Below, piece by piece: positions 14,982-60,720 of a stretch of DNA of 64,000 bases; position 1 is the first letter of the stretch, and each line of letters opens with the position of its first letter. Source of the DNA: Chaetoderma sp. LZ-2023a (taxonomy: Eukaryota > Mollusca > Caudofoveata > Chaetodermatida > Chaetodermatidae); NCBI GenBank assembly GCA_034401795.1, contig CM067373.1, positions 89,087,996 to 89,151,995 of the forward strand. Reading direction: 5' to 3'. Below the pieces are notes generated by a model, which was not told where the DNA came from, made no database searches, and saw nothing but the letters and a program-made list of their open reading frames with translations. A program made the position numbers and the translations under genes.

Positions 14982-15221
14982 CTAGGGCGCATTGACACCA
15001 ATAGTTTTGTTCCCAAACCACGTGAGTCTATCAGACCGAATGTAACCTGTTTGTGACGCGTCCCCATTAAGAAGACGAACTGTCACGTAAAATGTGTACA
15101 CGACATTTGATGGCAGCTCAATTTGCGGCAATTCAAGGCCACACTTTCCTTCAAGCAAATATCGTGGTACCTCCAGGAGCCGCATATCGGCCTCATACAT
15201 GCCATACACCGCGTGATATGC
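14982..15221 (-). CDS. exon 12 (C-terminal extension and stop)
   Basis: Acceptor CGCTATTTCAG. It encodes [20 protein letters not shown] and continues through [15 protein letters not shown] to a TAG at 14984-14982. The small C-terminal module after the CBM9 fold (L..Y..YG.Y..D...L) is usual in the family. The 3' UTR runs into a MITE from about 14880. A minus-strand ATTAAA lies inside that MITE near 14684, but no polyadenylation site can be fixed. Confidence 0.84.
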   Translation of the reverse strand, partial: AYHAVYGMYEADMRLLEVPRYLLEGKCGLELPQIELPSNVVYTFYVTVRLLNGDASQTGYIRSDRLTWFGNKTIGVNAP

Positions 15222-18200
15222 CTGAAATAGCGAAACAGAAAATCATTAAAATGCATAGTGAAGTAGAAAAGCATCAAAATGTATCATTTAGACATAGAGT
15301 ATAGCTCTATAGTTTGACTGGAAGACATTGCAATCCAATTTGTTCAAAGTATTCAACAGAACATTTCTTATTAACATGTTTATTTTTGTTGTTTTTGGAA
15401 ACATTTTACGTTAATGTTACGTTATATTTTAGGCGTACTATGTTATATTCATTCACAAATAATTGTAATTGTATGTCAGATTGAATGGAATTATTTCACG
15501 TTGAGCAGCAAGACCTTGGTCCACATTTACGCCGGTCGACTATTTTGTTTCTAATTGCTTACTTTAAGATGAATCTCTAAGTTTCCTTTGTTTTTTTACT
15601 TTCTTCATCTGTATTAGCGATATGTGTCAATAGGCATAATTTTCTAGAGACTGAATGGTCAGGAGGGTTAAAGTGTTCAGTGACATGCGTGTCTTCTTCA
15701 TGTCTATTATAGCAAAGAGGTGTGTAGTTGCATTCAACTTAAAGGGCATTTATTTTCACCGACGTACTGCTTTTGGCATAATTTGCAGGATAATAAATTA
15801 ATGACGTTTTTAGAATCGCAATTTAAATTAGACCGAATTTGGCATTTGTCTTTGTTTTGAAAGCTCATACGTCGTTTTATATTTGGAATAAATAGGCCCA
15901 ATATACACTTTTTCTTTGAACATTTCCAAAATTCTCCTACACCACTAATTGGACAATTTTGACGAATCTTGGTAGGCCTGTGATCTGCAGCATTACCAGG
16001 GATAGTTTCCAAATCACGTAAACTTTCAGACTTAATTTTGCGCAAAAATCTAGACGAATACCCTTTCGGTTTGAGGGCCTTGAACAAAATAATTGGGAGC
16101 ACGGAGATTAAAAGTTTGTTCTATCACTCGAATTGCTATGTAAACGGATGATTTGTGATTTTACAATTCCTTTAAATGTATGAGGTCGGTGGACAGATTT
16201 CTAGTGTAGCAATTGATGCGAATCTGTGGGCTTAAAGTACAATGTACTTTTAGAATACATATATCAACTACATTTATATAATGAATGTCATAACGGCGGC
16301 AAAATAGGGCGAATTGATACGGGCTAAAGTTGTTCGCCTCCAATGACCTAAATATTCAAGAATTTTCTTATTCTGGCGCACACACATCTTGATATGATTC
16401 TTATTCTACGCACACATTTTGATATGATTCTTATTCTGGCGCACACATATCTTGCTATGATTCTTATTCTGCCGCACACATATCTTGATATGATTCTTAT
16501 TCTGCGGCACACATATCTTGATATGATTCTTATTCTACGCACACATATCTTGATATGATTCTTATTCTACGCACACATTTTGATATGATTCTTATTCTGG
16601 CGCACACATATCTTGATATGATTCTTATTCTGGCGCACACATATTTTGATATGATTCTTATTCTGCCGCACACATATCTTGATATGATTCTTATTCTGGC
16701 GCACACATATCTTGATATGATTCTTATTCTACGCACACATTTTGATATGATTCTTATTCTGGCGCACACATATCTTGATATGATTCTTATTCTGGCGCAC
16801 ACATATCTTGATATGATTCTTATTCTACGCACACATTTTGATATGATTCTTATTCTGGCGCACACATATCTTGATATGATTCTTATTCTACGCACACATA
16901 TCTTGATATGATTCTTATTCTGCCGCACACATATCTTGATATGATTCTTATTCTGGCGCACACATATCTTGATATGATTCTTATTCTACGCACACATTTT
17001 GATATAATTCTTATTCTGGCGCACACATATCTTGATATGATTCTTATTCTGGCGCACACATATTTTGATATGATTCTTATTCTGCCGCACACATATCTTG
17101 ATATGATTCTTATTCTGCCGCACACATATCTTGATATGATTCTTATTCTACGCACACATATCTTGATATGATTCCATACCAACCTGTCACCAAGAAGTTG
17201 ATACATAGAACATGCTAAAACACGCGAGTTTGAGGAAGAACATATATATGTAGCGCTCACAAACGCATAGCTGTCAGTATCTGTTTAAACGGGCTTTGAC
17301 CTTTGATATTACCTGTAATTCTTTGCGACAGGGGAAGACCTTCTTATTGAATGGCAGTTCCAACATTTACGAGCCTAATCTTACGCATTTTATAAAACTC
17401 ATCAACGTTGCATAGTTTATATGACCAATTCGATTTCAATGATATGGCAGTGTGAATGCACTCATGGTCACAACGGCAGCAAAAATAGAGCGGTATATTG
17501 ATTTCGAGCCTTGAAAGAAGTCGGTTAATTTCTTAATATTCATAACAAATAATTTGACTTTAAATTTTTCACATTCCCACAATCCCAAAACAAAGACATT
17601 TCGATAACGTCAGCCAAGTATCTGTAGCATACCTGTAAAGCATTGAATACGTCGAACAGGGCCCTTGAAACCAGCCAACGCGTGTCTGTCTTGAAGGCTT
17701 GGGTATTTGGTTCAGCACGGCTAAACTGCAGTAAGCCCCACCTGCGGGGTAGAGATCGGAATAACTAAAGCTTTGAAATGTGATTGAATAAAGGTACAGA
17801 CAACAGATCATAATAGACGGATCCATTTCTAGCTATGCCCCGCCCATTTCAAGCTAAGCTCCTCCCACTTTTTACGTGTGTTGGAATAAGTTTATATATT
17901 TTGAACCCAGATTTACCAGAGTCCGAATTTAAACGTAATTATACAGGTAAGCTACTGAATATTTTGAAGCTAATTTGACTGGGTGCTATTGCTGCACATA
18001 GCAGCAACAGCGCCCGGTCAAATTACTTTCAAAATATTCAGCCGCCTGTTTATTAAACAGTAAAGACACACAATGTACACATGTAACGGACTTTTCAATG
18101 TTGATGACGGAGCTAAATAAATCACTATATATTGTGATGGTAGCCTGCCTTATATGTGACGGAGTTGATTCTGACGTCATATACTTGAGTGACAGATCGG

Positions 18201-18894: not shown

Positions 18895-21800
18895 CCGGGC
18901 TATAAACATATTTTGGAATAATCAATAGTTGGAGTGTAATATAATGATCTTGATGTAGTGATACTGCGTACTAATTTGCAGACAAAATCCGGTTCCGGTA
19001 TGTTTGTTGTTATTCCTAAATAGTATGTTACCTACGGTGCGCGCACGAGTTTCTTGGTATGCGAAAAACATATTGGAGATTACAGATGTGTTGACAGTCT
19101 AACAATGTTAAATATGTCTAGACAGTTGGCCATTTGAGAAAAATACTGGGGCCACAAGTCTTACAACCCTCGCCCAGTAAAAAATTACATCAAATGCTAT
19201 CAACCGAAGAGAGCAAACCACGATAAAAGATGGATGACATCACAGAAACCAATAGAGGAATCCAGTTTTAGCTATGCCCCGCCCATCCTTACTCCTTAGC
19301 TAAGCTTCACCCCTCTTCGGCTGTGTTGGGATCGATCGATCCCTGAACTCTCTCACTATCAATTTCTAACTATACAGGTAAGCTGTTGAATATTTTGAAT
19401 CTAATTTGGCTGGCTGCTGTCATAGTTCGTACAGCAACGATTAGACCGTAATCCGTCAACAATTAATCGTTCGGGACGAAATTATGTACGTCATTCATAC
19501 GAAGTTGATTATGGCGTCATATGATTGATAAATAAACTGGAAACTTCCATAGCTGACATGTTGAGGAAACACGTGCATCCATGAATAACCTGGGCCCCAG
19601 TGCGCAGTTGTGTAGTTAAAAGAGGCATAAAGCAACGTCCGTCGTTAGCCCACGTCTTAGACATGAGCTAACGGTGGGCGTTGCTTTAAGACTAATTAAC
19701 AGCATAACTGTGGACTAGGTCCCTGGTGTTCTCTACGAAACGTTGGCGAGTTTAACCATCAAATTTCTATTTAGGTTTTAAATATTTGTGGAATATCTAC
19801 GTTGCAATGATTGCCTCTTATCTTCTTGATCATAGCATGAGCGCATATATAACAATCGATGTTCAAATGCTCACATCGACCCGCTAGAAGCATTTTATGC
19901 CCACGTTTCCGGATATAAAATTAATGTATAGATCTATCAATTATAATCTCTTTACCATTATCGTCATATGTTTGCTTATGTAACAGGCTGGTTACGTCTG
20001 TAGACATGTAATGTACACGGAATTGTAGTAATTTGCTTCCATTGCACGATCATTTAACAAGCCTAATCATGCTTAATAAACTGTGAACCTTAATTATCAG
20101 TCATCATTATTCAGCTAGCGTCTACGGCTAGAAACTATTTTTGTTACATAAGGCTGTCATTTAACCATGTAACACTCATATCAGCCAGAAATGTCCATGT
20201 GTAGACCAAGAGAAGACATTTTTTGAAAATTTACAACTGAAATGACAGTACATTTTCAAAAATAGCCTTCTCTTGGTCTGCAAACTGACATTTTCTTTGA
20301 GAAAATTGAAATTTTCTTGACAAAATTGATAAATAAACGGTTTAAGACAGGTTTTATCGCATACGAAGAAGAAGTGCAACAACTTTCGCTAGAAGCCATT
20401 CAGTTTGGGTTGTCTTGATGATGTTGTAGTAAATAAGCAAATCTCTAGTCATGTTGGCTGTGTAATACGCTAGGTTAGGCCAGTAACTGTTATCTTCACT
20501 CATTATGTGTGTGCGCGCGCGCGCGCACGCGTGCGTGTGTGTGTACGTACGGGGATGCGTGCATGCGACGGGAGAGAGGGATCTATTGATATCTCAAAAA
20601 ATTCTGGTCAGATTTTCCTCAAATTCTAATACAACGTAGGTGCTATAATACGTTAAGATTCCACACCATTGATCATGATGCGAAAACCGCGGAAAATCCT
20701 GAAAATCCGAAAAATCCTTTACGAAGTGACAAAAACACGAGAGAGAGGCAGGGTGTGCAATCTCTTGCCCTTGTTTGTGTTTACAATAATGTCACATTGT
20801 ATGCCTATTACCTGTCCGGTAGATGCAGAGCGATAGCTCCGTGTGGCGTCCAGGACCACCAATCTGCACCCAGCGACTCATTCTGAAATACAACATACTA
20901 TGCTCAGGTTATTCGTATCAAATGTGCTATGCAATCTGTATCTGACATTAGGCTATATCAAAATATGATGGCAACTCTATCCTTTCAAGCCTGAAGTCCG
21001 TCTCACTGGCAGGTTCTATTGCGACTAAACATACGTGACGGCAAATCTGATACCACGTGTCAACTCAATATAGCATTTACTTGTTAATTTCGCTTGATTG
21101 AGATAATTTGTAGAAGTACCCAGCAGAAGATGAGGTGTTGAAATGTAAATACAGAAGCATACGATAATTATTACCGCAATATCCCTATAGCGAAACAGCT
21201 ACAAATTACCAGGATCATTGACAATATTCCCAATAATATCCGATCCGTCACTTAAGCGAAGTCATAAGTAAATACGTGAATGGTAGGCTGACGTCAAAAT
21301 CATTATCACATATTATAACGCCGTCAGGAAGTAGGAAAGGTCAGGGTACGAATTGTATCTCTCTTTAATGAATTTACTAGTTGACAAACATTTTTAGGAT
21401 ATTTTGAAAACTAATTTGGCTGGGAGTTGTTTCTGTCTCAATAGCCCCCTGTCGAATTCGTTTCAAAATATTCAACAGCTTACCTGTATAGTTACCGTGG
21501 AATTGGAATTATACGTGCGTGTGTGCATGCGTGCGTACATGCGTGCGTGCATGCGTACGTGCGTGCACGTGTGAGGGGATGCGTGTCTGTGCATATATAG
21601 TGTGTGCATGAACTAACGCGTGCAGTACTTGTGTAATAGATTGATAAGCATGAGCCGACACGCGTGTTCTCACCTTAACATATGAATCATTTATGATGTT
21701 GAATTTCCACTCAGGGCTACAACAGAAGATATACATACAGCACTTAGTCGACATCCGTTAACCTATCAATACAGAATCCCTTTAAATCTAGTCATTTAAA

Positions 21801-35669: not shown

Positions 35670-35734
<65 letters not shown>

Positions 35735-35735
35735 A

Positions 35736-35803
<68 letters not shown>

Positions 35804-35810
35804 TAGCAGC

Positions 35811-35870
<60 letters not shown>

Positions 35871-35940
35871 TGTAGTTGTAGTTGTAGTAGTAGTAGTAGT
35901 AGTAAAAAGGGAGTAATTGTCGCAACAGAAACGTTCGTAT

Positions 35941-36029
<89 letters not shown>

Positions 36030-45900: not shown

Positions 45901-47283
45901 AACACCAATTAAAACAGCAAAAGTTGAGAAGGCATTCAGCCCTGGACCTGCTGGCATGAGCAATGAATCATTCAAATATGCAAGTGACATTATCTCAAAC
46001 CGAGCACGCACATTATCAATTCAGCTTTTATGCACCACCTTCCCATCGACGCTGTAGGTCAAGGCACCCTTATCGCTCCACCTAAGCCCAAGAAGCCACC
46101 TGGGCCCCCAGCCAATCTGCGGCCCATTGTGCTCCTCGACAGCATGCGGAAAATCCTATCCAATGTTACTCTATGCCGCATCTGAGACAAGATCGATTAC
46201 TTTACCGGATCAGGTCAAAGTGGCTTCAAATGTGGACGCAGCTGTGCAGACATTGTATGGGCTCCACGCATGCTTATGTCGGTAGTCATGTCCAAACACT
46301 GGGACTTCCACAAAATGGACATTGACATGTCACGAGCCTTCGACACAGTTAAATGCTAAAAGATCCTAGATGTACTACGCCAGGCCAGTTGCAATGTAGC
46401 TGAGATACGACTAGTGAGACTACTGCTTGCAGACACCAAGCTGAGAGTACGAGTCAAGTCAGTGAATTCTGAAGTGTTTGAGACATCAATCGGCTCCACA
46501 CTTGGAGATGGTCTATCTCCGGTGCTTTTCACCTGCTACCTTGCTGCCGCATTGAAATATGTGCGGAAAAGTTCCACAAGCCCAACTCACCCCACCCACC
46601 CCACCCCCGTGTCAATACTGAGCAAGCCACTAGAAATGAAATATGCCGATGATGTGGACGAGGAGAAAAACCCCATGATGACCTTCTCCCAATAGCTGCA
46701 AGCAAGCTAAAAATTGAGAATCTCTTTATGAATGAATCCAAAACAGAGTTCACCCACATATACCTATCTAAAAAGCATGAAACTAAAGAAAATGATGATC
46801 CGCTTCGTGGCGGCAAACCATGGAGGAAAAGTAAAATCGTTGTGTCATAGGGAACATAGCTTTCCAGTCCTTCTGGAAGCTATGGATTCGTAGACCAAAG
46901 ATGCCCTTGATATAGAGGCTACGTTTATACAATGCAACCTGCGTATCCTTGATGCCGTATAACTGCAACAGCTGGGAAGCTCCAAAGGCAGCTCTAGACA
47001 AACTCGATGCCTGCCAGCGCAAACACCTACGCACCTTCACTGGACACCGATGGCCAGACAGTATAATTTCCTAGTCGTCTTGACAAATACAGCTAAAATA
47101 TACATACTTTGCTAAGTCGTAGGTCCCATGTTGTATTCAACGCATTCACTTGAAGTTCTTTGTAGCTAAAACAACAACATAACACTTTTAAAATTAATAA
47201 TTGTTTGTATTGAGTGAATGAACCCCCTCACTCACACGCGCGCTCGCGCGCGCGCACACACACACGCACACGCACACGCACGC

Positions 47284-47345: not shown

Positions 47346-50300
47346 GCGCACACGCATACGTACCCACTCACGCACACATGTTCATATAGCACATAGACTG
47401 CCATTTGGTATACTGGCACAAAATACAATATTTTAACTTGCCGATCTTATATATGGAGATAATTGCGCTCTACCAGGACCTTCTCTCGTTATGTCCTATT
47501 TATTTTTGTATTTTCTCTTGAGTATTTGTTTTAGTTACGTTGAAATGCTAAGAATTCGAGGTTCAAAGTAGATAAATCAATCTCATCACGCGCAAAACGT
47601 GGACGAAGCTTAGCTTGTAATTGGCGGGGCATAGCTAGAAATTGGCGGGGTATAGCTAGAAATGGATCCTTCTATTGTCTTATCACATCATTGATGAATT
47701 ATCATATTTGAATGTGATTACCAGACATAAATCAAAGGAACGCCGCGTCTTTGACAAGCTCCACTTACTTGTGGCATGATCCGTCTGCGTCAAAGTACAC
47801 CTGCAATAGAGCAAATACATAATGCTGATTGCACGCACGCAAGTAAGTACGCACGCACGCGCACGCAGCCATATACTGCTGATTACAGACAGATAAATAT
47901 ATACGGATGATTACATACTCAGACATTTAATGCTAACCATATACAGACACGCATATACGCACACGTCTCCGCAGGCCCACGTATGGGAACGCGTACGTAC
48001 ATGCACACGCACACTTGCACGTACACACGCACGCACTCCCGCACGCGCGCACACGCATGCACGCAGACACGCACACGCGGAATATGTAATTAGGCCTACA
48101 TATACAGGTACGTTTGACTTACCTCAAAGGCATTATCTGTCCAGACTGTAAAAGAAATGAAATACAGATCTATTTTGGTAAAAGTTTTTTAAATGCACAA
48201 TTGTTAAATAAAATATTCAAAATCACTTTGGATAGTCAACCTGCTCTGGTGACCAACTGACTGATGTGCCCAAGGCTCTATGTGATTCCACGTCTCCGAA
48301 TGCAGAGTGTGGATCAATGGACAGACACGTGGAATCGCTGTCGTAAATAGTATTGTTCTTTAAGTCAGATTCCTGATATGACACAATTTAGGATTTAGCT
48401 GTACCTCTTGTTGCACGTGCATGTCATGGTTAGAGCGCCTCTCGAGAATGCTCTCTTTTGTAATTTGTATCTATTGTTTACATTACAAATACGATCACGT
48501 AGTCGGTGCAATGGATGAATCCTCTTTTCGCTATGGCCCGCCTACATCTAGCTAAGCTCCGCCAATGCTTTGTCCACGTTGGGATCGATCGAACCATGAC
48601 CTCTCTGAATCTCAAATTCGAGAGAACAATAGGCATACATGTGAGCTGTTGTATATACACCTGTGCAAAAGTTAAGCACTAGCAAAAACAATAGAACGTA
48701 GAAACATGATGGTACAACTAGGCTGCCATACTTTTTGTCCCCGCGTTAGCTGACATAATTCCAAGTACGAAATGCACATGCATGCATGACTTCACGCCGC
48801 TTGATGTCCGTGCGTGGCGGGAAACAGCACACGTGTTCAGTTATGTAAAAGTCCAGTTTGAGGTGTAGAACATTACATACAGATTTAGGCGACAAGATTA
48901 GGAATTTTGTGTTCATGACCGTGGTTTATTTGTACAGAGAGAATTAGCTCTTGATTGTGAACCGCTATGGCAAGACGAAGGTTAAGTGATCGTGTGAAAT
49001 GGCAAATCATAGGCATGCATACCACTGGTATGTCATGCAGAGAGATTGGCAGACAGCTGAACATTAACCATACTGTAATCAGTCGTTTGATTGCAAAACA
49101 TGGGCAAACTAACGAGGTGAAGGACAGGCCTAGATCTGGAAGACCGAAGAAGACTACTTCCCGTGATGATCTAGTACGCCTTGTTAGGAGATCTCCATTC
49201 ACCAACAGCAGAGTGCTCAGCCAGCAATGGGAAACGCGCAATAGAGTGTCAATGTCTACCGTCAAAAGGAGACTGTATGCTGCTGGCATGAAAGCTAGGA
49301 GACCTGTCAGACGTCCTCTCCTCACTGCACACCACAAAGAGGAGCGTCTGAGGTGGTGCAACGAAAGAAGACACTGGAACATGAGATCCTGGAGACGGGT
49401 ACACCGGTCCGATGAAAGTCGGTTCCTGCGTCATGCCACAGATGGTCGAACTCGTGTATGGAGGTCCAGACGCACGGCGTACGACCAACGTAACATCATG
49501 GAAGAAGTTCCATTTGGTGGAGGTTCCGTTATGATATGGGGGTGCATCTCATTTGATTGTAAGCTGGATCTGTTGACTGTACCTGGAACACTAAATGGAC
49601 AAAGATATCAAGATTCCATACTGGATAGAGTTGTGGTCCCTCATTTTGTAAATCATGCACCTGGAACCCACCCTATATTCATGGATGACAACGCCCGACC
49701 ACATCGTGCTAGAGCTGTGCATGAATACCTCCGCCAGAATGCCATCGAAACCCTACCATGGCCAGCAAGGAGCCCTGACATGAACCCTATTGAGCATATC
49801 TGGGACATTCTGGGAAACATGGTGAGAAGGAGGGATCCTCCTGTGCAGAACCTACAGGAATTAAGAGACGCACTCCATCTTGAATGGCAACGAATACCAC
49901 AATGGCGTATCAGTCGGATGGTGACCAGCATGAGACGTCGTGTCCAGGCCGTCATCCAGGCACAAGGTGGATATACCCGGTATTAATAATGACAGTCTCA
50001 AACTCGTGCACAGATGTTAAACTTCGTTTTCAGACACCATTAATGACAATCTAGCCACGTGTGTCAACTGTAGGGCAATAGTTGTCAGTTGTGTCAACGT
50101 AACCATATTCAGGCCTCGTTTTCAAGTTCAAACAAAAACATACAGTGTTTCCCCACCATCATAATCAGCATTCCTCTAGTTGCATTATTACCTCTTGCAC
50201 TAAGATGGATGGGTACATAAATGTTTATGCTATTGCTTTCTTCATAGCACATGAATATACCCTCGCATGTGCGTAAAAATAGGGTGGTGCTTAACTTTTG

Positions 50301-51340: not shown

Positions 51341-54300
51341 ACTGCATTCTGCGACTGTAGTAGTAGAAACATCTCACAGCTGCAATCAGCCCTTCTTCGC
51401 TTTTTCCCATTGTGTATTGTCCTCAGCAGAAATCCTTAGCTTCCTCAGGTCCATTTTGACTTGAGTGTGCCGAGTCCTGCTTTCTTGAGGTCACCTCGTA
51501 GCGCAGTAACGTGCTCTTCTGGCTTTGTATTTCGAATTTCAAGGCGCTCTGTGCTGACGTGTCTTCTGGCATCCTTAGCACATGACCAAACATGGACTAT
51601 CTTTGCTGGGCAAATTTTACAGACAACGGCGATATATTGCACATCTTGTACAGTGCATCATTGGAAATTAAGCTGTCTGCCCATCGGTGTGCATTAGATG
51701 GCTGCACTGGTAGGCATCAAGTTTGTCTAGAGCTGCCTTTGGAGATGCCCAACTGTAACAGTTATACAGCATCAAGGATACGCAGGTTCCATTGTATACG
51801 CGTAGTCTTTTTGTTACTGGTATCGTTGATCTACGAATCCATAGCTTCCAGAAGGACTGAAAAGCTATGTTCCTCATGACGCAGCGTGCAGCAATTCCAG
51901 AAGACCGGCAAAGCAGTGATCCCAGGATTGTACTTTTCCCCCATGGTTTGCGCCACGAAGTGGATCATCGTTTTCTTTTGTTCCATGCTTTGTAGATAGG
52001 TATATGTAGGTGAATTCTGTTTTGGATTCATTCATAAAGAGATTCTCAATTTTTTATTTGCTTTCGGCTATTGGAAGTAGTTCGTCAAGGGATTTCTTTT
52101 CTTCATCTATGAAGCCCACATCGTCGGTATATTCCATATCTATCGGCATACCAAGTATGGAAACTAGGGAGTTTGGTATTGTGGAATTTTCCCGCACGGA
52201 TTGCAATGCAACAGCACGATAACAGGTGAAAAGCACAGGGGATAGACAAGCTCTCTGTGGGTAGCCGATTGATATTTCAAGCTCTACAGACGTCACTGAC
52301 TTGACTCGTACTCTCAAATAGATGTCTGCAAGTAGTAGTCTCACTAGTCGTAGCTCATCTTCATTGCAACTGGGCTGGCGTAGTACGTCTAGGATCGTTG
52401 AGCACTTACTTATAGCTATGCCCATTTTGTGGAAATCCCAGTGTTTAGACATGACTACTGAGACAAGCATGCGTTGAGCACATACAATGTCGGCGCAGCA
52501 GTATCCACGTCTGAAGACACTTTGGCATGATCAGGTGAAGTCATCGATCTTGTCTCGGATGCGGCACAGAGTAAGATTGGATAGGATTTTCCGTATGCTG
52601 TTGAGCAGCACAATGCTGCAGATTGGCTGGGAGCCCATGTGGCGTCTTGGGCTTGGGTAGTGCCTTGGCATACAGCATCGATGGGAAGGTGGTGCATAAA
52701 AGCTGAATTGATTAGGTGCGTGCTTGGTTTTGAGGTAATGCCACATGCATATTTGAATAGTTCATTGTTCATGCCACCAGGTCCATTTTTCAGGGCTTTA
52801 AGCGCCTTCTCAACTTCTGCTGTTTTAATTGGTGTTAGTAATGGCCCGGGGTCTCCTGAGAACGGGTGAAAGGGCTCATCATCGTTGTCAGTGAACTATT
52901 CCTTGAGCCATTCTCAGATCGCCTCGGCTTTTCCCTGGTCATTCTCGATAGTATGAGGAGCACAATGGGTCGCAGATTGGCTGTATCCCATATGTCCAGG
53001 TTATAGCCAATAGATGTATCTTTTTAAAATACGGAAACATATCCATAAAGCTTTTCTTGTGGGACAATACAAGCATTGAATCCGCTGATTCTTATATATA
53101 TAAAATATGTGTATTGTCCCACAAGAAACATTTTATGGGCATGGTTCCAAATTTTAAAATGATGTATCTATCGGCTATATTGTCTTTAATTTATAATAGT
53201 ATTATGGACACAGAGGATAGCAAAAATCAAACCAAACGTGTCGTGTTCCGTCTTAGTCGCCCATAGATCTGTTTCCATCAGCTCAGCGGCGATGTAAACA
53301 TAAGTGTCATCCCATCGAATCTTTACTCGAGTTCTCTGACTAGGAATCGGGTATTGAGCTCCACGAAGATCTGAGAATGAAATACACAATATGTTATACC
53401 CGTAGGTCTATACATGGATCCAATTTTATCACGTATGTCCCATCCAGTATCGCAATGTTATTCGATCGATTGAGCTGCCAATCTCTTCCAGTCATTCAAA
53501 GGCCATATGTGATTGTATATATCTAAAAGAGCTTTCTGTGTTTTTATCTCAATATATGGACACATGACATACACTTAGGTTATGCGCTACCGTGGTTTGT
53601 CATACGAGGCTTAATACTGCAGTAGGTAGTTCTACTCTGTGACTTAACCCACAAAATTTGTTCAAGAAAATTTCGATTTTCTCATAGAAAGTATCCATCT
53701 ACAGATCAACAGAAGATTATTTTTAAAAAGCTGGCACTGGAATGACTGACAGGCCATTCATTCCAACAGTAAATGTTCAAAAATACTCTTCTCTTTCTCT
53801 TCAAATGAACATTTCTCACTACCATTGCACATGCTATTTTGTCCGGCTTGAGTGTTAAAGATTTAAAGAAGCAACCTCTTTAGAGATGAAAAGGAGACAT
53901 TTCAACGGACAGATAAACATGTCCATTACAATTCATATTTCCAGAGTATCCATCGATGAGTTGACGCCATATGACGTCATAATCGGCTAAGCGGCGTGTA
54001 GGGTGACGTCATAACCATTACGTCAGAAATTATTCTATTAGGCCCGTCTTTAACTCTTAATCTTCCGACACGTTATGAGAATTGTATGTCGCTCCCATTT
54101 AATAAACATGCTGGCAGCCACAGCACCCAGTCAAATTATTTTCAAAATATTCAACAGCATACCTCTATAGTTTTCTGGAAATTGATAGTCAGGAAGTTCA
54201 GAGATCGATCATCTCAATACGAGTGAGGTGTGGGTGGAGCTTAGCTAGAAATGGGCGGGGCATAGCTAAAATGGAAATGTCCATTAGGTTTTCTGATGAT

Positions 54301-56464
54301 TACGAGATGGTGGGTTTATAACATGGATATTGGTAAGACCACCCGCAATAAATAGCCACCATTTTGTGTCGCACCAAATGCCATTTTATATAGCCAGCGA
54401 CTTATATTAAAACTGAATACCAAACAATTTAGTGACCACTCTTGAATGGTTAATATATGGATCCGCCTGTAGCTAAGCTCCGCCAACATTGTACCTGTAG
54501 TGGAATCAATTTACATGCTTTGAATCCTAAATTCCCAAGATTTCAGTTTCACGATAATTATAAGCATACGCTGTTGAATCTCTTCAAATTAATTTGACTG
54601 GAGGCTTTTTCTGCTAATGGCAGCAATAACGCCGATTCAGATGAGTTTCAAAATATTAAACAGAATGTTTATTAAATAGTAAATATATCAAAGACATACA
54701 AGTCGTAGCGCCATGCGCTTGATTTGCAGGTCGGACCCCTCCATTATGTTATAGACAGGATTAATTTACTGCATAGTGTGATCCATTTCTAACTGAGCTC
54801 CACCCAGTTGGCGCATGCGTGTGAATCGATTTAGCACGTTGAACCTTGAATTCACAGAATCTCAGGATAACTAAGCTGTTGAATATCCATTTTCTATTAG
54901 TTTTAAATAGTCAACAGAGTGTATATTATTATGGTAAATTAGTTAGAATTCAAGGCGAAATGGTTAAAGAATGAAGGTTATCTTTAATAACAACCCCCGT
55001 AGGCCTACATAGGATCTTTCCGCAACAAAATAGGAATTGATAATAACAATTATCTCATAAAATAGTGTTTCTTTCCTTTCATAGCTAGAACAGGACTCCT
55101 CCACTGTATGCCTTTCCTCATATTCCTATCGGGTTTGTTATTAAAGACACCTTTCATTGTTTAGCCAATTGTGACGTCATATGATTGACTGAGAAACGGG
55201 AATCCTCCATTCCAATAGTTACTGGCGGACCGTTGCATCATTTCATATCGGCCCTGTCATTTGATTATGAAGCCATTTATCAAGTGATGTTTTCTGATTA
55301 TACGTCAGATACTTGTGTCATAGATCAGTCCCTCCATTCTGACATGTGCCCACATACACTTTCTCCCACATGCCTACCCGCCCGACGGCCAGCCACTCAC
55401 TCGCCCACGCGCTCACGCACACGCTCCCATTCACTCACTCGTTCAGTTACAAATAAACACATACGCTCGTTGCCTCTGATCAACCCATACAGTCCTCAAT
55501 CGCGATGATAGAGCAAAACTGTTTTGCATCATACCACAGAATATGTCTAACTTTATTACCAGCAAAATCTTCTGTCCATTGTACGACCGCCCATGCATCC
55601 TCGTTGAACTCTCCGTCAATATTAATTCTCTCCCCAGATCTCAGGTGATAAGTTGTGTAATGTCGAGGAAGTGTACCGCCACAAACACTGGAAAATATGC
55701 GAGTAAAATAACATCAGCTCGAGGAACGACCAAAATCTGATTATCGTGCACGACACACGCACGCACAGACGCACGCAAATTTATGCTCTGCTTCTACCCT
55801 ATAAGTCACTTTCTATAAGCAATTACTTTTTAGCATGTGATGGTGCAATCTCTACGGCATGTGGTCAAATGGTCGCCTAGAGACTTCCACTATCACAATC
55901 AGAATTAGATTCCAGTAAACAAAACTGAACTAAGTTATTATGTTCTTATCTTTTTATGAATTAATAAACATTTGACAATTTTCACAACCTCTATCAATAT
56001 TAAAATTTCGGTTAAAATCGTCAATTTTTACATCCGATAAAATTCGCAGTAGGACCTCATTGTGTGACTCGCCAATCACGCGAGTTCAGATTTCACCACA
56101 CGTGTTTTCAGATTAGAGGAAATTGTGTCTAATAAAGAGTAACTCAATTGGACTTGATGACACCTTGATTGTTATAATCTATTAGATATATTTACTAAAT
56201 CGTTGTCAGCGTTAAGCAAAACTCCACTGACGTCATGATTTTATGGGTGTTCATGAAAATCGTGCAAGAGTCTTGAAGAATGGAAATGAGTTCTCTTTGA
56301 TCGGGTGTTTGGAAGTGGAGGCTTGGCTGGTATGGAATCTGCGGTTTGGAGAATTACATTTCGTGAGTTACAAAAGTTACGAAGCCGGATCCAGGTTATA
56401 GTTTAGCCATGTTTCTCCCGGATCTCATTAATATGGCGGTGTCTGAATGCAATTATCAATCATG

Positions 56465-59500: not shown

Positions 59501-60720
59501 TTGACAAAATGGGGACAGACAGACAGACGGACGGACGGACATGTTGACCGCTATATCATACACACCCTTCCAGACCCGGGGGTGGAGTGGGGGTCGTGGT
59601 GGATAAAAACGAAATAATCAGAATTTCTTGGAATAGTTCTAGTTACCAAAATTTGAATAGTTACATTTACAATCATATTAGCTATATCGTTCCAGGTTTA
59701 TGTGTAAACGTGCATTGCCAATCAGAATGGACCTTTCTGGTTTTAGCTATAGCCCGCCCATCACTAAGCTCTACTCCCACCTCGCTCGTGCTGTGATCGA
59801 TCGATCCCTGAACTCTCTGACTATCAATTTCCAGAAAACTATACAGGTAAGCTGCAATATTTTCAAACTAATTTGACTGAGCGCTCTTGCTGCCTATGAT
59901 TATTACTTCATCATACACACCACATAGTTAATTATGACGTCATATGACGTCAGATGATCGATGGATAAACTGGAAAGGTGAATTCCGTGCTAATTCTAAA
60001 GAATATGCTTGCTCCCAGTCACAACAGCAGTTGAGTTGAGCAAGTCTCTGAATTGTTGTAGGAGGAATATAAGGAAAGTCACATCAACACAATAAACAGC
60101 AGCACTATGTTGAGCTGTATGCTAAATAAATCCAGAATAAGTCGTTGTAGCTAAGCATACACATCTCCAGCTTGTTTATTATTTTGCGCGTGTTGGAATA
60201 GATTTGAAACATTGAAACCTGAATTCCAAGAACCTAAATTTTACGGTAAGTTAGGGGTAAGATATTAGATATTTGGGAACTAATCTGAATAGGGGGTTGT
60301 TAATGCGTGTGACAGAACAGATCCCAGTCAAATTAGTTTCAGAGTATTCAAAAGAATGTTTATTAAATTATAAAATTGATCAAACACAATTCGTACACTT
60401 TCGGGACAGAAATCTCGATTTTCATGATGGAGCTACACCAATTTGATTGTGACATCAGCTAATATCTGATGTATTTCCTTATGACGTCAGATACTTGGGT
60501 GGGAGATGCAATCCCACTATTCATCCTAGCCGACGTACCCTGTATCAGTATCAAGACCGTCTGTGGGCTGTGTGGAACCATTTGTGGGCTGGTCAGTTCC
60601 GCTGCAATTTTTCGGCTCGCAGGGGTTTGGTATAAACACGTATCCAAGAAGAAGGCCTATTCCAAGACAAAGAACAGCTGCACCGACTGTAATAAGAATT
60701 ACATACCGCGTGGAAACCAT
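14982..60720 (-). CDS. CBM9-like carbohydrate-binding type II membrane protein gene (12 coding exons)
   Basis: Seen: twelve minus-strand exons, 60539-60720, 55560-55687, 53233-53370, 48123-48145, 47769-47800, 47108-47165, 33436-33532, 32342-32453, 21674-21716, 20812-20882, 17633-17741 and 14982-15221, total 1233 nt (410 residues plus stop) in one frame, every intron GT-AG. Residues 1-6 are a short tail with Arg5, about 7-30 a membrane segment, 31-62 a Cys/Thr/Pro/Ser-rich stalk, about 63-310 a CBM9-like beta-sandwich with [36 protein letters not shown] and [19 protein letters not shown], then a C-terminal extension. Several N-X-S/T sequons fit an extracellular domain. Family knowledge: CBM9 domains in bacterial xylanases bind glycan chain ends; related stand-alone proteins occur in bacteria and invertebrates. 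Inferred: a single-pass membrane lectin-like protein of unknown ligand. A cleaved signal peptide instead of an anchor is possible. No enzyme domain is seen. Confidence 0.85.
15305..15365. repeat. MITE-A fragment in intron 11
   Basis: CAATCCAATTTGTTCAAAGT and ATTCAACAG match the palindrome arm. Confidence 0.45.
15600..16345 (-). mobile_element. Penelope-like element 3' fragment
   Basis: Minus frames give [20 protein letters not shown], then [20 protein letters not shown] and YVGE, then, after a frameshift near 15735, [20 protein letters not shown]. This is the linker and GIY-YIG type C-terminus. Another remnant upstream (16161-16343) is open but not assigned. It is about half conserved relative to the 6.0-kb copy, so a different family. 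Confidence 0.72.
16372..17175. repeat. minisatellite, 33/30/32-bp units, about 25 copies
   Basis: Unit types: CTGGCGCACACATATCTTGA plus TATGATTCTTATT (33 bp), a CTGCCG variant, a 30-bp form CTACGCACACATTTTGATAT plus GATTCTTATT, and a 32-bp form. Because 33 and 30 are multiples of three, long open frames arise on both strands (11-residue repeats such as [11 protein letters not shown]). These are not evidence of a protein. Confidence 0.92.
17633..17741 (-). CDS. exon 11
   Basis: Acceptor TACCCCGCAG, donor GTATGC. It completes Arg295 and encodes [16 protein letters not shown], then [16 protein letters not shown]. This matches the WG.VQFS block and the following helix of CBM9-like proteins. Confidence 0.84.
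17819..18215 (-). repeat. MITE-A in intron 10
   Basis: Begins GGATCCATTTCTAGCTATGC and ends near GACAGATCGGATTTCTCCAT. The central palindrome is around CTGCACATAGCAGC. It starts 77 bp upstream of the exon 11 acceptor. Its 18090-18160 part is repeated inverted at 22030-22082. Confidence 0.72.
18440..18680. repeat. MITE-B, fold-back element
   Basis: Long inverted repeat: AGACCAAGAAAAGACTATTTTTGAA at 18499 pairs with TTCAAAAATAATCTTCTCTTGGTCT at 18591, with a further internal stem of ATGACTGGC / GCCAGTCAT. Ends read as AACACT...AGTGTTAA. Confidence 0.7.
18829..18891. repeat. (AT)n microsatellite
   Basis: About 31 uninterrupted AT units. Confidence 0.97.
19253..19552 (-). repeat. MITE-A, internal deletion
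   Basis: Starts GAGGAATCCAGTTTTAGC, contains ATCGATCGATCC, half of the palindrome, and the terminal ACGTCATTCAT / GCGTCATATGATTGAT part. Confidence 0.65.
19588..19737. repeat. short palindromic MITE
   Basis: CTGGGCCCCAGTGCGCAGTT and, inverted, CCTGGTCC..AGT at the right end, around an inner hairpin AAGCAACGTCCGTCGTTAGC ... GCTAACGGTGGGCGTTGCTT. Confidence 0.6.
20163..20345. repeat. MITE-B, fold-back element
   Basis: AGACCAAGAGAAGACATTTT pairs with AAAATAGCCTTCTCTTGGTCT around TGAAATGACAGT. Confidence 0.65.
20503..20545. repeat. (GT)n/(GC)n microsatellite
   Basis: Alternating GTGTGCGCGCGC tract about 270 bp from the exon 10 donor. Confidence 0.85.
20812..20882 (-). CDS. exon 10 ([10 protein letters not shown] motif)
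   Basis: Acceptor GTATTTCAG, donor GTAATA. It encodes [20 protein letters not shown] then LPD and two bases of Arg295. This is the strongest single family match (NW.WSP.G.I.MH.PERWG). Confidence 0.86.
21245..21505 (+). repeat. MITE-A, truncated, in intron 9
   Basis: TACGAATTGTATCTCTCTTT, a shortened palindrome (GGCTGGGAGTTG) and TTACCTGTATAGTTACC. Despite the repeat, the adjoining exon 9 is intact 170 bp away. Confidence 0.55.
21511..21575. repeat. (CGTG)n microsatellite
   Basis: TGCGTGCG/CATGCGTGCG tract inside intron 9, about 100 bp from the exon 9 donor. Confidence 0.85.
21674..21716 (-). CDS. exon 9
   Basis: Acceptor CTGTTGTAG, donor GTGAGA. It completes Arg257 and encodes [14 protein letters not shown]. 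This corresponds to the VEW....DG.Y.K stretch that precedes the W.WSP motif in the family. Confidence 0.8.
21878..22018. repeat. (AT)n then (TGCG)n microsatellites
   Basis: AT repeats at 21878-21898; about 19 TGCG units at 21939-22018. They end at a MITE-A fragment (22030-22082). Confidence 0.92.
22140..22650. repeat. left inverted module (parts A and B)
   Basis: Part A 22140-22460 matches inverted 31850-32295. Part B 22461-22650 (GGGGAGCAAG, TTAAAGGATGTCATAT, CATCCTTGCGGAT, AAGGTCACAATGACGTT) matches inverted 27300-27500. Confidence 0.65.
22651..25385. other. left part of the insertion, no gene recognised
   Basis: AT-rich. 22745-22965 looks like a MITE with AACCCTTTTACGATATTAAG and an inverted end CATTAACCTTTTGACATT. 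Minus-strand coding-like phrases such as [20 protein letters not shown] at about 23690 suggest a decayed gene. None is assignable. Confidence 0.35.
25388..25985 (-). mobile_element. RTE-like LINE 3' fragment
   Basis: Antisense of the C-terminal region ([33 protein letters not shown]) and of [17 protein letters not shown]. The 3' end is GATTACTGTGTTATGCGGC at 25388. It interrupts the decayed gene remnant of this insertion. Confidence 0.7.
26222..27032 (-). pseudogene. decayed gene remnant, possibly a second copy of the unknown gene family
   Basis: Frame 27032-26619 encodes 137 residues with [20 protein letters not shown]; frames at 26514-26222 include [20 protein letters not shown] and [20 protein letters not shown]. 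The latter resembles the block of the 27.8-31.6 kb family that precedes the tract coded near 29330-29420. Relation is tentative, and stops separate the pieces. Confidence 0.35.
27300..27770. repeat. internal module (inverted B, then A in left orientation)
   Basis: 27300-27500 is the inverted copy of part B. 27505-27770 is part A with GATTTTGGTGTCTACC, GCCTAGCAACACATTACGAC and CAAGATGGCCGCCAAAACCA. It sits directly downstream of the pseudogene, facing the inverted A module at 31.85-32.3 kb. Confidence 0.6.
27780..31600 (-). pseudogene. decayed copy of a dispersed metazoan gene family of unknown function
   Basis: Minus-strand frames line up as one protein: 31594-31373; 31332-30774; 30777-30538; 30525-29881 (214 residues open, with [20 protein letters not shown] and [20 protein letters not shown]); 29801-29610 ([20 protein letters not shown]); 29608-29324 ([38 protein letters not shown]); 29320-28960; 28953-28263; 28293-28006 ([11 protein letters not shown]). 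At least ten stops or frameshifts separate them. I recall near-identical block orders in many uncharacterised multi-copy proteins of invertebrates and fish. Those normally have a further tract between the YADFTIH and CLRVYYQ blocks and a Cys-rich C-terminus; both seem lost here. Function unknown. A mobile-element origin is inferred from the flanking inverted modules. Confidence 0.65.
31850..32295. repeat. right inverted module
   Basis: Three diverged units of GGTAGATACC(A/G)AAA(C/T)C, GTATGAATAGTTAAC, GGCGGCCATTTTG and CCAAATATCTAATAACCCCAT, opposite in orientation to 22140-22460 and 27505-27770. It ends about 45 bp from the exon 8 splice donor. Confidence 0.65.
32342..32453 (-). CDS. exon 8 (CBM9-like core)
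   Basis: Acceptor TGTCTTGTCAG, donor GTGAGA. It encodes [16 protein letters not shown] and ends in [10 protein letters not shown] plus two bases of Arg257, matching GWTVE.AIP...L and P..GD.WR.NFSR of the family. The large intronic insertion ends about 50 bp past this donor. Confidence 0.83.
32535..32800 (-). repeat. MITE-A with the palindrome deleted
   Basis: AATGGATTCCAGTTTTAGCC, GGATCAATCGATCGAGCTC, AGGTAAGCTGTTGAATATTT joined straight to AATAGTAAAGACATAC. Lies 80 bp upstream of the exon 8 acceptor. Confidence 0.65.
32990..33185 (+). repeat. MITE-A, 3' half
   Basis: TTAGTTTCAAACTATTCAAC, CGATCGATCCCAACACGAG and GGCGGCGCACAATTAAAACT. Lies in intron 7. A GTCGGTCAGTCGGTCAGTTG run precedes it at 32873. 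Confidence 0.65.
33436..33532 (-). CDS. exon 7 (CBM9-like core)
   Basis: Acceptor TATTCAG, donor GTTAGT after the first base of Ser220. It encodes [20 protein letters not shown] and [12 protein letters not shown], matching the Y.DGG.A...W.....V...GTLN.P block of the family. Confidence 0.84.
33540..35440. other. intron 6 sequence, nothing firmly identified
   Basis: 33700-34020 is GC-richer than its surroundings and 34740-35340 holds phrases such as GGATCCGAACCCGAGGAC at about 34900, whose complement (GGGTTCGGATCC) resembles a tRNA B box. A tRNA-derived SINE is possible, but no convincing A box was found. 34260-34538 is open (92 residues, [10 protein letters not shown]) without a recognised relative. 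Confidence 0.3.
35443..36076. repeat. (ACT)n/(AGT)n arrays with a repeated 39-bp spacer
   Basis: ACT arrays at 35474-35551 and 35587-35667, AGT arrays at 35668-35902 and 35941-36028, then a short ACT array to 36076. The spacer AATACGAACGTTTCTGTTGC plus GACAATTACTCCCTTTTT occurs at about 35443, 35552 and 36029 in one orientation and at 35903-35944 inverted. Open frames here are only triplet repeats. Confidence 0.95.
36077..36990 (-). other. LINE 3' untranslated region with an internal duplication
   Basis: 36335-36465 and 36500-36610 are diverged tandem copies beginning GCACACCGT(G/A)TAGTAGTA, each holding GGCCAAATGGCGA, CCAACAAGTGG and ATTGA(T/C)GCCA. No open frame. Confidence 0.65.
36994..40797 (-). 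pseudogene. LINE ORF2: endonuclease and reverse transcriptase, interrupted
   Basis: ATG at 40797-40795, [20 protein letters not shown], then a TAG where LQE.K of the endonuclease is expected (about 40693). The frame 40668-39775 has [18 protein letters not shown] and the SDHN active-site block ([14 protein letters not shown]). A frameshift near 39840 leads to 39841-38861 with [32 protein letters not shown] and [16 protein letters not shown]. Another near 38865 leads to [14 protein letters not shown] and [10 protein letters not shown]. Further frames 38364-37300 and 37227-36994 cover the C-terminus, including a [18 protein letters not shown] zinc-like motif. At least four lesions. Confidence 0.85.
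40835..42076 (-). pseudogene. LINE ORF1: nucleic-acid-binding protein with zinc knuckles, one stop
   Basis: Open from [20 protein letters not shown] to a single in-frame TAA at 41858-41860, then open again in the same frame for 329 residues. A CX2CX4HX4C knuckle ([14 protein letters not shown]) is followed by a second in which the second Cys is Tyr ([14 protein letters not shown]). The C-terminal half is acidic and ends [12 protein letters not shown]2 starts just past its stop on the sense strand. The start codon may lie further upstream. Confidence 0.78.
42077..42880 (-). other. LINE 5' untranslated region with repeated hairpins
   Basis: Two copies of an inverted repeat (CTAACAAATATACGAATAGA ... 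GTCGTATATTTGTTAG at 42320-42365, and 42410-42460 with ATATATGAATAGATAGTACA) flank a third stem AACCACTTTCTAAGTGGTT. Confidence 0.6.
42881..43155. repeat. (TAC)n microsatellite and decayed extension
   Basis: Thirty uninterrupted TAC units to 42972, then a run of CTG/CTA/CTT-like triplets decaying to 43155. Confidence 0.93.
43156..44180. other. intron 6 sequence, no gene recognised
   Basis: 43300-43900 is unusually GC-balanced, with minus-strand open frames sharing phrases such as [20 protein letters not shown] and DGSAENAV. It may be an old retroelement RNase H or RT remnant (FTDGSAENA near 43560 resembles the FTDGS motif of RNase H). Too degraded to call. Confidence 0.35.
44570..45240 (+). 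pseudogene. LINE endonuclease domain
   Basis: [14 protein letters not shown], a stop, then [20 protein letters not shown], the frame 44727-45230 with [18 protein letters not shown] and [15 protein letters not shown], and [12 protein letters not shown] in another frame. The order matches an apurinic-type LINE endonuclease (N, E, Y, GDFN, SDH). Confidence 0.75.
45525..47073 (+). pseudogene. LINE reverse transcriptase and C-terminal region
   Basis: Frames in order: 45525-45749; 45827-46057 ([18 protein letters not shown]); 46200-46360 with [20 protein letters not shown] and [13 protein letters not shown]; 46414-46695 with [20 protein letters not shown] and KYADDVDEE. Then [17 protein letters not shown] and the C-terminal block. 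Several stops. Confidence 0.72.
47108..47165 (-). CDS. exon 6 (CBM9-like core)
   Basis: Acceptor TGTTTTAG, donor GTATGT. It completes Asn168 and encodes [19 protein letters not shown], matching NYKEFEINALNT.WDLLL.K of the family. A LINE end lies only 35 bp beyond the donor. Confidence 0.84.
47236..47366. repeat. (CA)n microsatellite in intron 5
   Basis: CGCGCGC then CACACG and about 30 CA units, ending CATACGCACACG. Confidence 0.95.
47555..47680 (+). repeat. MITE-A 3' fragment in intron 5
   Basis: CAAAACGTGGACGAAGCTTA followed by a duplicated GGCGGGGCATAGCTAGAAAT. Confidence 0.6.
47769..47800 (-). CDS. exon 5 (32-bp exon)
   Basis: Acceptor CTATTGCAG, donor GTAAGT. It encodes [10 protein letters not shown] plus two bases of Asn168, continuing the FEVF.DPDG..HNY block of CBM9-like domains. 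Confidence 0.82.
47832..48085. repeat. CA/CG-rich ACGCAC repeats in intron 4
   Basis: Degenerate ACGCACGCAC tracts between the 32-bp and 23-bp exons. Confidence 0.7.
48123..48145 (-). CDS. exon 4 (23-bp microexon)
   Basis: Acceptor TTTTACAG, donor GTAAGT. With the G from exon 3 it encodes V-WTDNAFE, matching the DNDFEVF block of the family. The neighbouring frames agree on both sides. Confidence 0.8.
48512..48657 (-). repeat. MITE-A, first part, split by Tc1
   Basis: GGATGAATCCTCTTTTCGCT, GGGATCGATCGAACCATGAC, and GTGAGCTGTTGTA, which continues after the Tc1 element at 50309. Confidence 0.7.
48658..50308 (+). mobile_element. Tc1/mariner transposon, apparently intact
   Basis: 1651 bp with identical 22-bp ends CACCTGTGCAAAAGTTAAGC-AC and its complement, flanked by TA on both sides, and one uninterrupted transposase gene. 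Inserted in the TA of the MITE-A palindrome arm, which resumes at 50309 as TATTTTGAAACCAGTTTCAG. Confidence 0.9.
48967..49986 (+). CDS. Tc1-family transposase (DD34E)
   Basis: 339 residues, the usual length. Cuts and rejoins the transposon at TA sites. Residues 4-45 form the first helix-turn-helix ([20 protein letters not shown]), RPRSGRPKK at about 54-62 is the GRPR-like linker, and 80-115 the second helix-turn-helix. Catalytic residues D149 (RSDESRF), D241 ([11 protein letters not shown]) and E276 ([12 protein letters not shown]), with 34 residues between the last two. [10 protein letters not shown] at 184-193 is the glycine-rich block. The residues before D149 are VHRS where most relatives have a hydrophobic run, the one oddity. 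The ATG at 48967 opens the conserved start [11 protein letters not shown]. No stops or frameshifts, so possibly functional. Confidence 0.95.
   Translation: MARRRLSDRVKWQIIGMHTTGMSCREIGRQLNINHTVISRLIAKHGQTNEVKDRPRSGRPKKTTSRDDLVRLVRRSPFTNSRVLSQQWETRNRVSMSTVKRRLYAAGMKARRPVRRPLLTAHHKEERLRWCNERRHWNMRSWRRVHRSDESRFLRHATDGRTRVWRSRRTAYDQRNIMEEVPFGGGSVMIWGCISFDCKLDLLTVPGTLNGQRYQDSILDRVVVPHFVNHAPGTHPIFMDDNARPHRARAVHEYLRQNAIETLPWPARSPDMNPIEHIWDILGNMVRRRDPPVQNLQELRDALHLEWQRIPQWRISRMVTSMRRRVQAVIQAQGGYTRY
50309..50562 (-). repeat. MITE-A, second part, split by Tc1
   Basis: Continues the palindrome (ATTAGTTTCAAAATATTAAA) and ends with GACGTAATATACTTGAGTGA, then TTGGATTCATCCATT. Confidence 0.7.
50650..51125 (-). 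repeat. two further MITE-A pieces
   Basis: 50650-50860 has TATACAGGTAAGCTGATGAA and ACGTCATTTGATTATGACGT; 50862-51125 has CCAGTTTTAGGCAAGCTG, TTAAATTAGTTTTAAAATAT and three ACGTCA-like sites. Confidence 0.65.
51288..51340. repeat. (GAT)n at the LINE 3' end
   Basis: About 16 GAT units run directly into GATTACTGCATTCTGCGACT, the 3' end of the following minus-strand LINE. Confidence 0.9.
51338..52990 (-). mobile_element. RTE-like LINE, 5'-truncated
   Basis: Reads from about 52990 down: [95 protein letters not shown] (YTDD instead of YADD), the [10 protein letters not shown] block and the FGH-type C-terminus. Truncated within the RT at its 5' side. Several frameshifts. Confidence 0.78.
52998..53182. 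repeat. palindromic MITE next to exon 3
   Basis: TATAGCCAATAGATGTATCT ... CTTTTCTTGTGGGACAATAC, then after a loop GTATTGTCCCACAAGAAACA ... GATGTATCTATCGGCTATA. Arms of about 70 bp. It ends 50 bp from the exon 3 donor. Confidence 0.75.
53233..53370 (-). CDS. exon 3 (CBM9-like core)
   Basis: Acceptor ATTCTCAG. It encodes [20 protein letters not shown] and then [20 protein letters not shown], a close fit to the CBM9-like signature RTRVK..WDD.YLYIAAEL. The donor used is GTTTGA after TTT G (phase 1). It is weak, but it is the only GT that keeps the reading frame into exon 4. Confidence 0.83.
53640..53880. repeat. MITE-B, fold-back element
   Basis: ATCAACAGAAGATTATTTTTAAA pairs with TTCAAAAATACTCTTCTCTT, with ATGACTGACAGGCCATTCAT in the middle. 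Lies in intron 2. Confidence 0.65.
53930..54290 (+). repeat. MITE-A with half palindrome
   Basis: CATATGACGTCATAATCGGC, GGTGACGTCATAACC, GGCAGCCACAGCACCCAGTC, GATCGATCATCTCAATACGA and GGGCGGGGCATAGCTAAAAT, ending TGTCCATTAGG. Confidence 0.7.
54455..55345 (-). repeat. cluster of degraded MITE-A pieces in intron 2
   Basis: 54455-54720 and 54780-54950 carry GGATCC...GTAGCTAAGCTCCGCC and CTAACTGAGCTCCACCC starts and palindrome pieces. 55165-55345 has GACGTCATATGATTGACTGA and TACGTCAGATACTTGTGTCA. Confidence 0.55.
55560..55687 (-). CDS. exon 2 (first strand of CBM9-like domain)
   Basis: Acceptor ATTTTCCAG, donor GTAATA. It encodes a segment with the family-typical [12 protein letters not shown], where CBM9-like proteins usually read ITIDG..DE.AW, then WTEDFA. 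It begins with one base completing Gly61 and ends in phase 1. Confidence 0.85.
55745..56770. other. intron 1 sequence, no gene
   Basis: Contains (CAA)n at 56466-56505 (13 units) and plain AT-rich sequence. Nothing else recognised. Confidence 0.5.
56770..56885. repeat. MITE-B fragment
   Basis: GGCCAAGAGAAGACTATCTTTGA and ACCGAACTAGTCACTCCAGT, GGTAAATCTTCAAAAATGA. Confidence 0.55.
57000..57620 (-). mobile_element. diverged RTE-like LINE fragment
   Basis: CTTATCTAGAACTGCCTTTG, CATTACAGTTGTAATGCATC and TGTGACGCAATGCGCAGCAA align in order with 51710-51900 of the better LINE copy, so the same part of the element in the same orientation. Confidence 0.5.
57829..57908. repeat. C-rich CCCCCAC tract
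   Basis: Poly-C and CCCACC/CCCCAC units, G-rich on the minus (sense) strand. Confidence 0.9.
58280..59575. repeat. tandemly arranged dispersed repeat in intron 1
   Basis: A unit of roughly 300-350 bp recurs three to four times: GCTAAACTGTAGGAGTTG, GTTGACAAGAAATGATTG, AATGCAGTTTATGT, TTTAAAGGG, CACATGCACATCTTCA, GTTTCAAAAGAAT. Interspersed GGACAGACGGATAGACAT runs. Ends in GACGGACGGACGGACATGTT then CGCTATATCA, as at 10.6 kb. No open frame. Confidence 0.7.
59725..59985 (-). repeat. MITE-A with half palindrome
   Basis: AATGGACCTTTCTGGTTTTA, GTGATCGATCGATCCCTGAA, ACTATACAGGTAAGCTGCAA, then ATGACGTCATATGACGTCAG, two adjacent CRE-like sites. Confidence 0.7.
60150..60522 (-). repeat. MITE-A abutting the exon 1 donor
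   Basis: AATTTTACGGTAAGTTAG, palindrome arms around 60280-60350, GTTTATTAAATTATAAAATT, and the terminal GACGTCAGATACTTGGGTGG..ATTCATCC. It ends about 15 bp from the exon 1 splice donor at 60538. Confidence 0.65.
60539..60720 (-). CDS. exon 1 (start codon, membrane anchor, stalk)
   Basis: ATG at 60720-60718 with an in-frame TAA two codons upstream and a favourable context (GAGATGG). It encodes [20 protein letters not shown] and then a further hydrophobic run to about residue 30, followed by a stalk with C34, C39 and two N-X-S sequons. The donor GTACGT follows GG (phase 2). The next exon supplies T, giving Gly61. Start choice is firm unless an upstream exon adds sequence. Confidence 0.82.

Follow-up and report, generated by a model that had tools for sequence, protein, structure and literature searches.

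CBM9 carbohydrate-binding modules are known as parts of xylan-degrading enzymes, as in TmCBM9-2 (PDB 1i82) and CkXyn10C CBM9.3 (PDB 7nwn). The account of the binding site in PMC8280721 gives TmCBM9-2 a clamp of two aromatic residues, Trp71 and Trp175, with Gln96 and Asn172 as hydrogen-bond partners, and describes three calcium ions for CBM9. Bacteroides uniformis BACUNI_03838 (PDB 4jpq), a chain of ~218 residues, was deposited as a putative carbohydrate-binding protein; we know of no function for it. Among eukaryotes, Phytophthora parasitica is reported to have one protein whose sole CAZyme module is a CBM9 (PMC4176579), and an oomycete secretome table includes a CBM9 row (PMC4316629). The family is therefore not limited to bacteria, and an animal member need not derive directly from them. 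Here we describe such an animal gene, found in a stretch of 64,000 nucleotides (nt) of the Chaetoderma sp. LZ-2023a genome (2.44 Gb; contig CM067373.1, here C15, positions 89087996-89151995), hereafter the window.

The encoded protein has no enzyme domain, unlike the xylanase modules. By description, it shares this feature, and its eukaryotic setting, with the P. parasitica protein. In the strict CAZy sense, a carbohydrate-binding module is a module within a carbohydrate-active enzyme; because no enzyme module is present here, we call the protein CBM9-like. The CBM9-like kind is already known from bacteria and reported from oomycetes; an animal, probably membrane-anchored, tandemly copied form was not found in the open-access literature (subscription journals and protein databases lay outside this search). 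Similar invertebrate proteins may already have been annotated automatically.

The gene comprises 12 exons on the minus strand, which join into an open reading frame of 1233 nt that encodes 410 amino acids with 0 internal stops. The exon model was built from CBM9 motifs, then from splice sites and phase, and then by joining, so that the choice of exons was guided by the family. All 11 introns begin with GT and end with AG, and the reading phase is consistent at 11 of 11 junctions. The largest exon measures 240 nt, exons 4, 5 and 9 are micro-exons, and an in-frame TAA stands two codons 5' of the start Met in exon 1. The initial annotation had proposed a 12-exon CBM9-like gene hidden among transposons, with eleven junctions agreeing in phase, no exon longer than 240 bp, and ends at 60720 and 14982. 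Both ends proved exact, and the gene was borne out by the spliced frame, a Pfam match, a profile test and matches in tandem copies. Its introns do carry transposons, with a Tc1-like frame in intron 3 and a LINE-type (long interspersed nuclear element) retroelement in intron 6.

Two tests, one with a bacterial-only profile and one within the genome itself, confirmed that the gene is real and not a product of chance. The profile comprised 58 relatives with the window protein left out, although these rows had themselves been gathered with an alignment (A1) of the window protein and an Algibacter protein. It was run against 3733 stop-to-stop pieces of at least 10 residues from all six frames of the whole window. 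The seven best matches all lay on the minus strand and followed the family order from 55.7 kb to 17.5 kb (E from 2.7e-15 to 0.11; see table), and the eighth reached only E 6.5. Controls reached no better than E 4.7 (the reversed window) and E 3.7 (three triplet shuffles). Exons 1, 4, 5, 9 and 12 were not picked up individually by the 58-row profile in the six frames of the window; all five were found again, by DNA search, in both of the further tandem copies.

The animal carries three such genes in tandem, of which the window holds one, and the 12 exons are matched in each. A genome search with the coding sequence returned 36 exon places, the 12 exons in three copies ordered B, A (the window) and C, and a search with the protein returned 27. 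All of these places lie on the minus strand of C15 between 89.02 and 89.33 Mb, a span of 0.31 Mb. The PF06452 profile found no match in the same genome, presumably because single exons are too short. Between A and B, 11 exons share 95-100% identity; between A and C, 10 of the 12 share 91-97% and exon 10 shares 82%, in a match that overruns the exon. Compared with itself by the same search, A scores 97-100%, since matches overrun the exon joints by a few bases. As an intron reference we used a stretch of 1151 bases that covers the end of intron 3 and introns 4 and 5, exons 4-6 included. It is 95% identical between A and B, and aligns between A and C in pieces at 87%, 71%, 84% and 86%. Most exons are therefore more similar between copies than the introns tested. 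Exon 1 departs from this pattern: its counterparts in B (C15:89062351-89062523) and C (89332313-89332485) share one length, 9 nt shorter than that of the window, and each is 86% identical to it. This suggests either exchange between copies or fast change of the putative anchor and stalk.

Features of the window (positions within the window; E, value with the bacterial-only profile; every exon is also matched in copies B and C)
Feature	Position	Strand	E	Content
Exon 1	60539..60720	-		residues 1-61: start Met, predicted hydrophobic anchor (~residues 6-28), Cys/Thr stalk; copies B and C 86% identical in nt, 9 nt shorter
Exon 2	55560..55687	-	1.3e-6	stalk end and first CBM9 blocks
Exon 3	53233..53370	-	2.7e-15	CBM9 core; weak donor GTTTGA
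Exon 4	48123..48145	-		23-nt micro-exon VWTDNAFE, with W151 (place of TmCBM9-2 Trp71) and E157
Exon 5	47769..47800	-		32-nt micro-exon; placed by splice/phase joining
Exon 6	47108..47165	-	2.8e-4	
Exon 7	33436..33532	-	0.11	in family order
Exon 8	32342..32453	-	1.2e-4	ends ...WRIVLAR
Exon 9	21674..21716	-		43-nt micro-exon; placed by splice/phase joining
Exon 10	20812..20882	-	0.0042	W282, likely second clamp aromatic
Exon 11	17633..17741	-	0.0049	CBM9 domain end (RWGLLQFS) and start of C-terminal domain
Exon 12	14982..15221	-		remaining C-terminal domain, stop TAG
Frames	4919..6587	+		piece 4919-5497 scanned, no Pfam match; we take the frames to resemble a Penelope-type element
33-bp minisatellite	16365..17174			~25 copies, intron 11
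3-bp repeat	35670..36029			~119 copies, intron 6
LINE-type retroelement	37300..41857	-		several frames (endonuclease, reverse transcriptase, zf-RVT)
Short dispersed repeat	~47532..47698			intron 5; on many contigs of the genome at ~76-85% identity
Tc1-like transposase frame	48961..49986	+		open, 341 amino acids; HTH_Tnp_Tc3_2 and DDE_3

A search of the predicted protein against the Pfam CBM9 families, proposed in the initial annotation, matched PF06452 (CBM9_1) over residues 84-237 with 38.3 bits against a cut-off of 23.4 (E 1.7e-9); CBM9_2 gave E 0.002, below its cut-off. The NCBIfam scan assigned the protein to no family, and phmmer matched it to no PDB chain at E up to 1. A scan of genome contigs, whose E-values count candidate stretches only, found three loci, in two Algibacter species and one Latescibacterota metagenome-assembled genome. 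In an even sample of 247 Bacteroidota genomes from a larger group, the A1 profile at E up to 1e-40 found relatives in 48; the same profile found them in 31 of 64 Latescibacterota genomes. The Algibacter protein also had matches in three plasmid records out of 72,556, where the annotation reads 'carbohydrate-binding family 9-like protein'. The 58 profile rows were drawn from 68 loci, leaving out L002, L003, L006, L007, L009-L012 and L066 as near-copies, short or distant, and L013, which had no match.

The animal protein keeps 63 of the 94 positions that at least 80% of these rows conserve. Residues 64-302 have a median identity of 40% to the rows and residues 303-410 one of 16%, and residues 301-410 scored 19.1 bits against a profile of the bacterial C-terminal domain, where the best of 500 shuffles scored 4.5. 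By alignment, then, the animal protein is colinear over both domains with the bacterial two-domain family (Algibacter lectus L001:3923-4993, Aureibacter WP_309940891.1, Parabacteroides WP_011966800.1), with a weak similarity in the C-terminal one. It differs from these relatives in its 12 exons, its three tandem copies, several changed invariant residues, and a hydrophobic anchor and stalk in the place of the bacterial signal sequence. The predicted structure of the Algibacter relative is a CBM9 beta-sandwich. The C-terminal domain of the bacterial relative, a helix plus a sheet, looks pilin-like; it weakly matches type IV pilins and pseudopilins (PDB 4noa, 4bhr, 4d40; Foldseek E 0.084) and lacks the pilin N-terminal segment that would precede it.

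The predicted protein begins with a hydrophobic stretch of about 22 residues (~6-28), with a mean Kyte-Doolittle hydropathy of up to 2.79 (residues 7-25). A stalk of ~36 residues follows (31-66), which contains three Cys, seven Thr and two of the six N-glycosylation sequons of the protein; the Cys outside the hydrophobic stretch are at 34, 39, 63, 166 and 358. The CBM9 domain spans ~residues 67-302, the last ~100 residues form a separate C-terminal domain, and no catalytic domain was detected in the 410 amino acids by Pfam and NCBIfam scans. The initial annotation had named an animal type II membrane lectin with a signal anchor and a Cys/Thr-rich stalk. The stalk, the hydrophobic N-terminus and the family were all found as claimed; the uncleaved anchor, the type II topology and sugar binding remain predictions. 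It had not noticed the strand, the two further copies, the bacterial family that the ectodomain matches throughout, or the separate nature of the final domain.

Our preferred reading, to which we give slightly more credence than not, is a non-catalytic CBM9-like sugar-binding protein, held in the membrane as type II, that recognises glycan ends at the animal cell surface. The protein belongs to the family; from its sequence we infer sugar binding, a surface location, multimerisation through stalk Cys and a role in recognition. With a very short N-terminus in the cytosol and an uncleaved signal anchor, the protein would stay in the membrane; the glycosylated stalk would raise the CBM9 domain above the membrane, its three cysteines possibly cross-linking chains. 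The terminal sugar ring of a glycan would be held between W151 and probably W282, with E157 assisting. The final domain might serve in assembly or make a second contact. Most likely, the protein would recognise glycan ends in feeding or those of symbionts or microbes, with variants supplied by the tandem copies.

Evidence for the binding site comes from comparison with the bacterial rows. In the profile alignment, read by hand, the place of TmCBM9-2 Trp71 (-6 from an invariant Glu) is taken by W151 in the window protein, where all 58 bacteria carry F or Y, and E157 is kept. W282 aligns with a Trp that is invariant in 58 of 58 bacteria, and its N-x-x-W spacing suggests that it corresponds to Trp175, which would put W279 in the place of Asn172. 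The clamp thus seems to be kept and its rim changed, and the altered polar residues around the site may indicate a ligand unlike that of the bacterial relatives.

Several observations weigh against the preferred reading or bear on the gene model. The second clamp residue was placed by the N-x-x-W spacing and not by a residue-level alignment. Four conserved bacterial residues are replaced: N (58 of 58 rows) by W279, E (58 of 58) by Q173, R (55 of 58) by I190 and D (53 of 58) by A155. N240 of the relative may be the glucose-contacting Asn172 of TmCBM9-2, in which case the old ligand may have been lost. The exon 3 donor, TTTG/GTTTGA, is poor and is the weak point of the gene model; the same 139 bases recur in all three copies, which is not by itself proof of that splice site. 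Copies B and C, known from exon matches, are not proven to have frames open throughout. Between A and B, exon 1 diverges more than the tested introns. Exon 12 shows ~6 amino-acid changes per roughly 6-11 base changes between copies (from rounded identities), and the part that it encodes may be nearly unconstrained.

These replaced residues would also fit a CBM9 fold retained for a structural or protein-binding role after loss of sugar binding. Proteins with other roles share this fold, among them ethylbenzene dehydrogenase (2ivf) and nitrite oxidoreductase (7b04) subunits. We think such a loss of binding unlikely, as neither candidate clamp aromatic has been replaced, E157 is present, and W151 is the same residue as in TmCBM9-2, unlike the F or Y of the 58 bacteria. 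Similarly unlikely is a lectin or cofactor resident in the Golgi or endoplasmic reticulum that acts on N-glycans inside the secretory pathway. Golgi enzymes typically combine a very short cytosolic tail, a single anchor and a stem, and some bacterial relatives adjoin N-glycan or mannan genes (in Algibacter, GH92 and GH130; in Hymenobacter, GH92, N4-GlcNAc-asparaginase, ROK and GH2). A lectin domain at the C-terminus is also known from one animal family of Golgi enzymes: CBM94 of MGAT4, described in PMC12616123, is a carbohydrate-binding domain that likewise sits in a type II animal protein but belongs to another family and is joined to a glycosyltransferase. Against this reading, our protein has no catalytic domain, and tandem copies would be more usual among recognition proteins.

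A cleaved signal peptide would make the protein a secreted lectin of mucus, gut fluid or matrix. Most bacterial relatives start, by inspection, with an apparent short signal or lipoprotein sequence. The hydrophobic stretch of the animal protein is nevertheless long for a signal peptide, its hydropathy is high, and inspection revealed no clear small-x-small cleavage site, so that we consider secretion rather improbable and favour the type II surface protein. Bacterial contamination, an assembly artefact or a dead pseudogene might be suspected, as the nearest sequences among the bacterial and archaeal genomes searched are bacterial. Against this stand the three ordered copies, whose 36 exon matches spread across 0.31 Mb of a contig that extends beyond 172 Mb, the animal-type transposons in the introns, the frame open over 1233 nt, and the greater likeness of most exons than of the tested introns. 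This explanation is very improbable.

Origin by transfer is possible. In its fullest form, an animal lineage would have taken a bacterial glycan-scavenging protein (CBM9 plus pilin-like tail), added introns, anchor and stalk, and multiplied it into surface receptors for glycan ends; we regard this history as doubtful. The oomycete reports make an older eukaryotic history possible and the transfer less likely. In a tree of 59 proteins, with a midpoint root for drawing only, the animal branch is very long (3.49) and falls in no starred group, so that neither donor nor date can be read from it. If the preferred reading is true, animals gain a type of lectin overlooked by callers of open reading frames, a glycan-uptake protein fold serving as an animal membrane receptor becomes a testable case, and a pilin-like domain enters an animal protein.

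Judging by its neighbour genes, the bacterial protein probably serves in glycan uptake or handling, though not always in an evident cluster. Neighbours were counted at 40 loci (L029-L068). Apart from G001, 47 Bacteroidota genomes had a match, and 40 of them supplied these loci; the other 28 of the 68 loci, including the probe sources L001 and L004-L006, stood outside this count. A GHL10-like gene was found at 25 loci, GH92 at 13 and GH130 at 13; at nine of the 40, the probes matched nothing, or just a transporter or a ROK gene. Part of the GH92 neighbourhood is a single cluster passed on by descent: 10 of the 13 GH92 loci (L029-L037, L041) fall within one starred clade of 12 rows that includes L001. 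Anywhere in the genome, GH92 occurs in 25 of the 40 genomes, at 1-9 each. In 12 of the 40 genomes a PF02638 (GHL10) match lies no more than ~1 kb from the CBM9-like gene; the whole-genome background is 0-5 matches each, with 35 of 40 genomes positive. The Parabacteroides neighbours are housekeeping genes, a serine hydrolase and a peptidase.

A divergent GHL10-like gene (L001:5000-6109) stands beside the Algibacter CBM9-like gene. The two kinds of gene possibly form a two-gene glycan module, and a conserved two-domain protein often accompanied by a GHL10-like partner would offer a clue on the bacterial side. DigH is presumably a GHL10 member. PMC12288456 describes DigH as acting on peptidoglycan strands. 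A GHL10-like partner was not found in the animal genome, a result that is uninformative because the query has not been shown to match any animal gene. On the Hymenobacter plasmid (L006:8947-9995), the CBM9-like match spans two adjacent annotated genes, one CBM9-like and one hypothetical, and in the Latescibacterota protein (L003:2625-4571) a long region resembling beta repeats is fused to the CBM9-like stretch.
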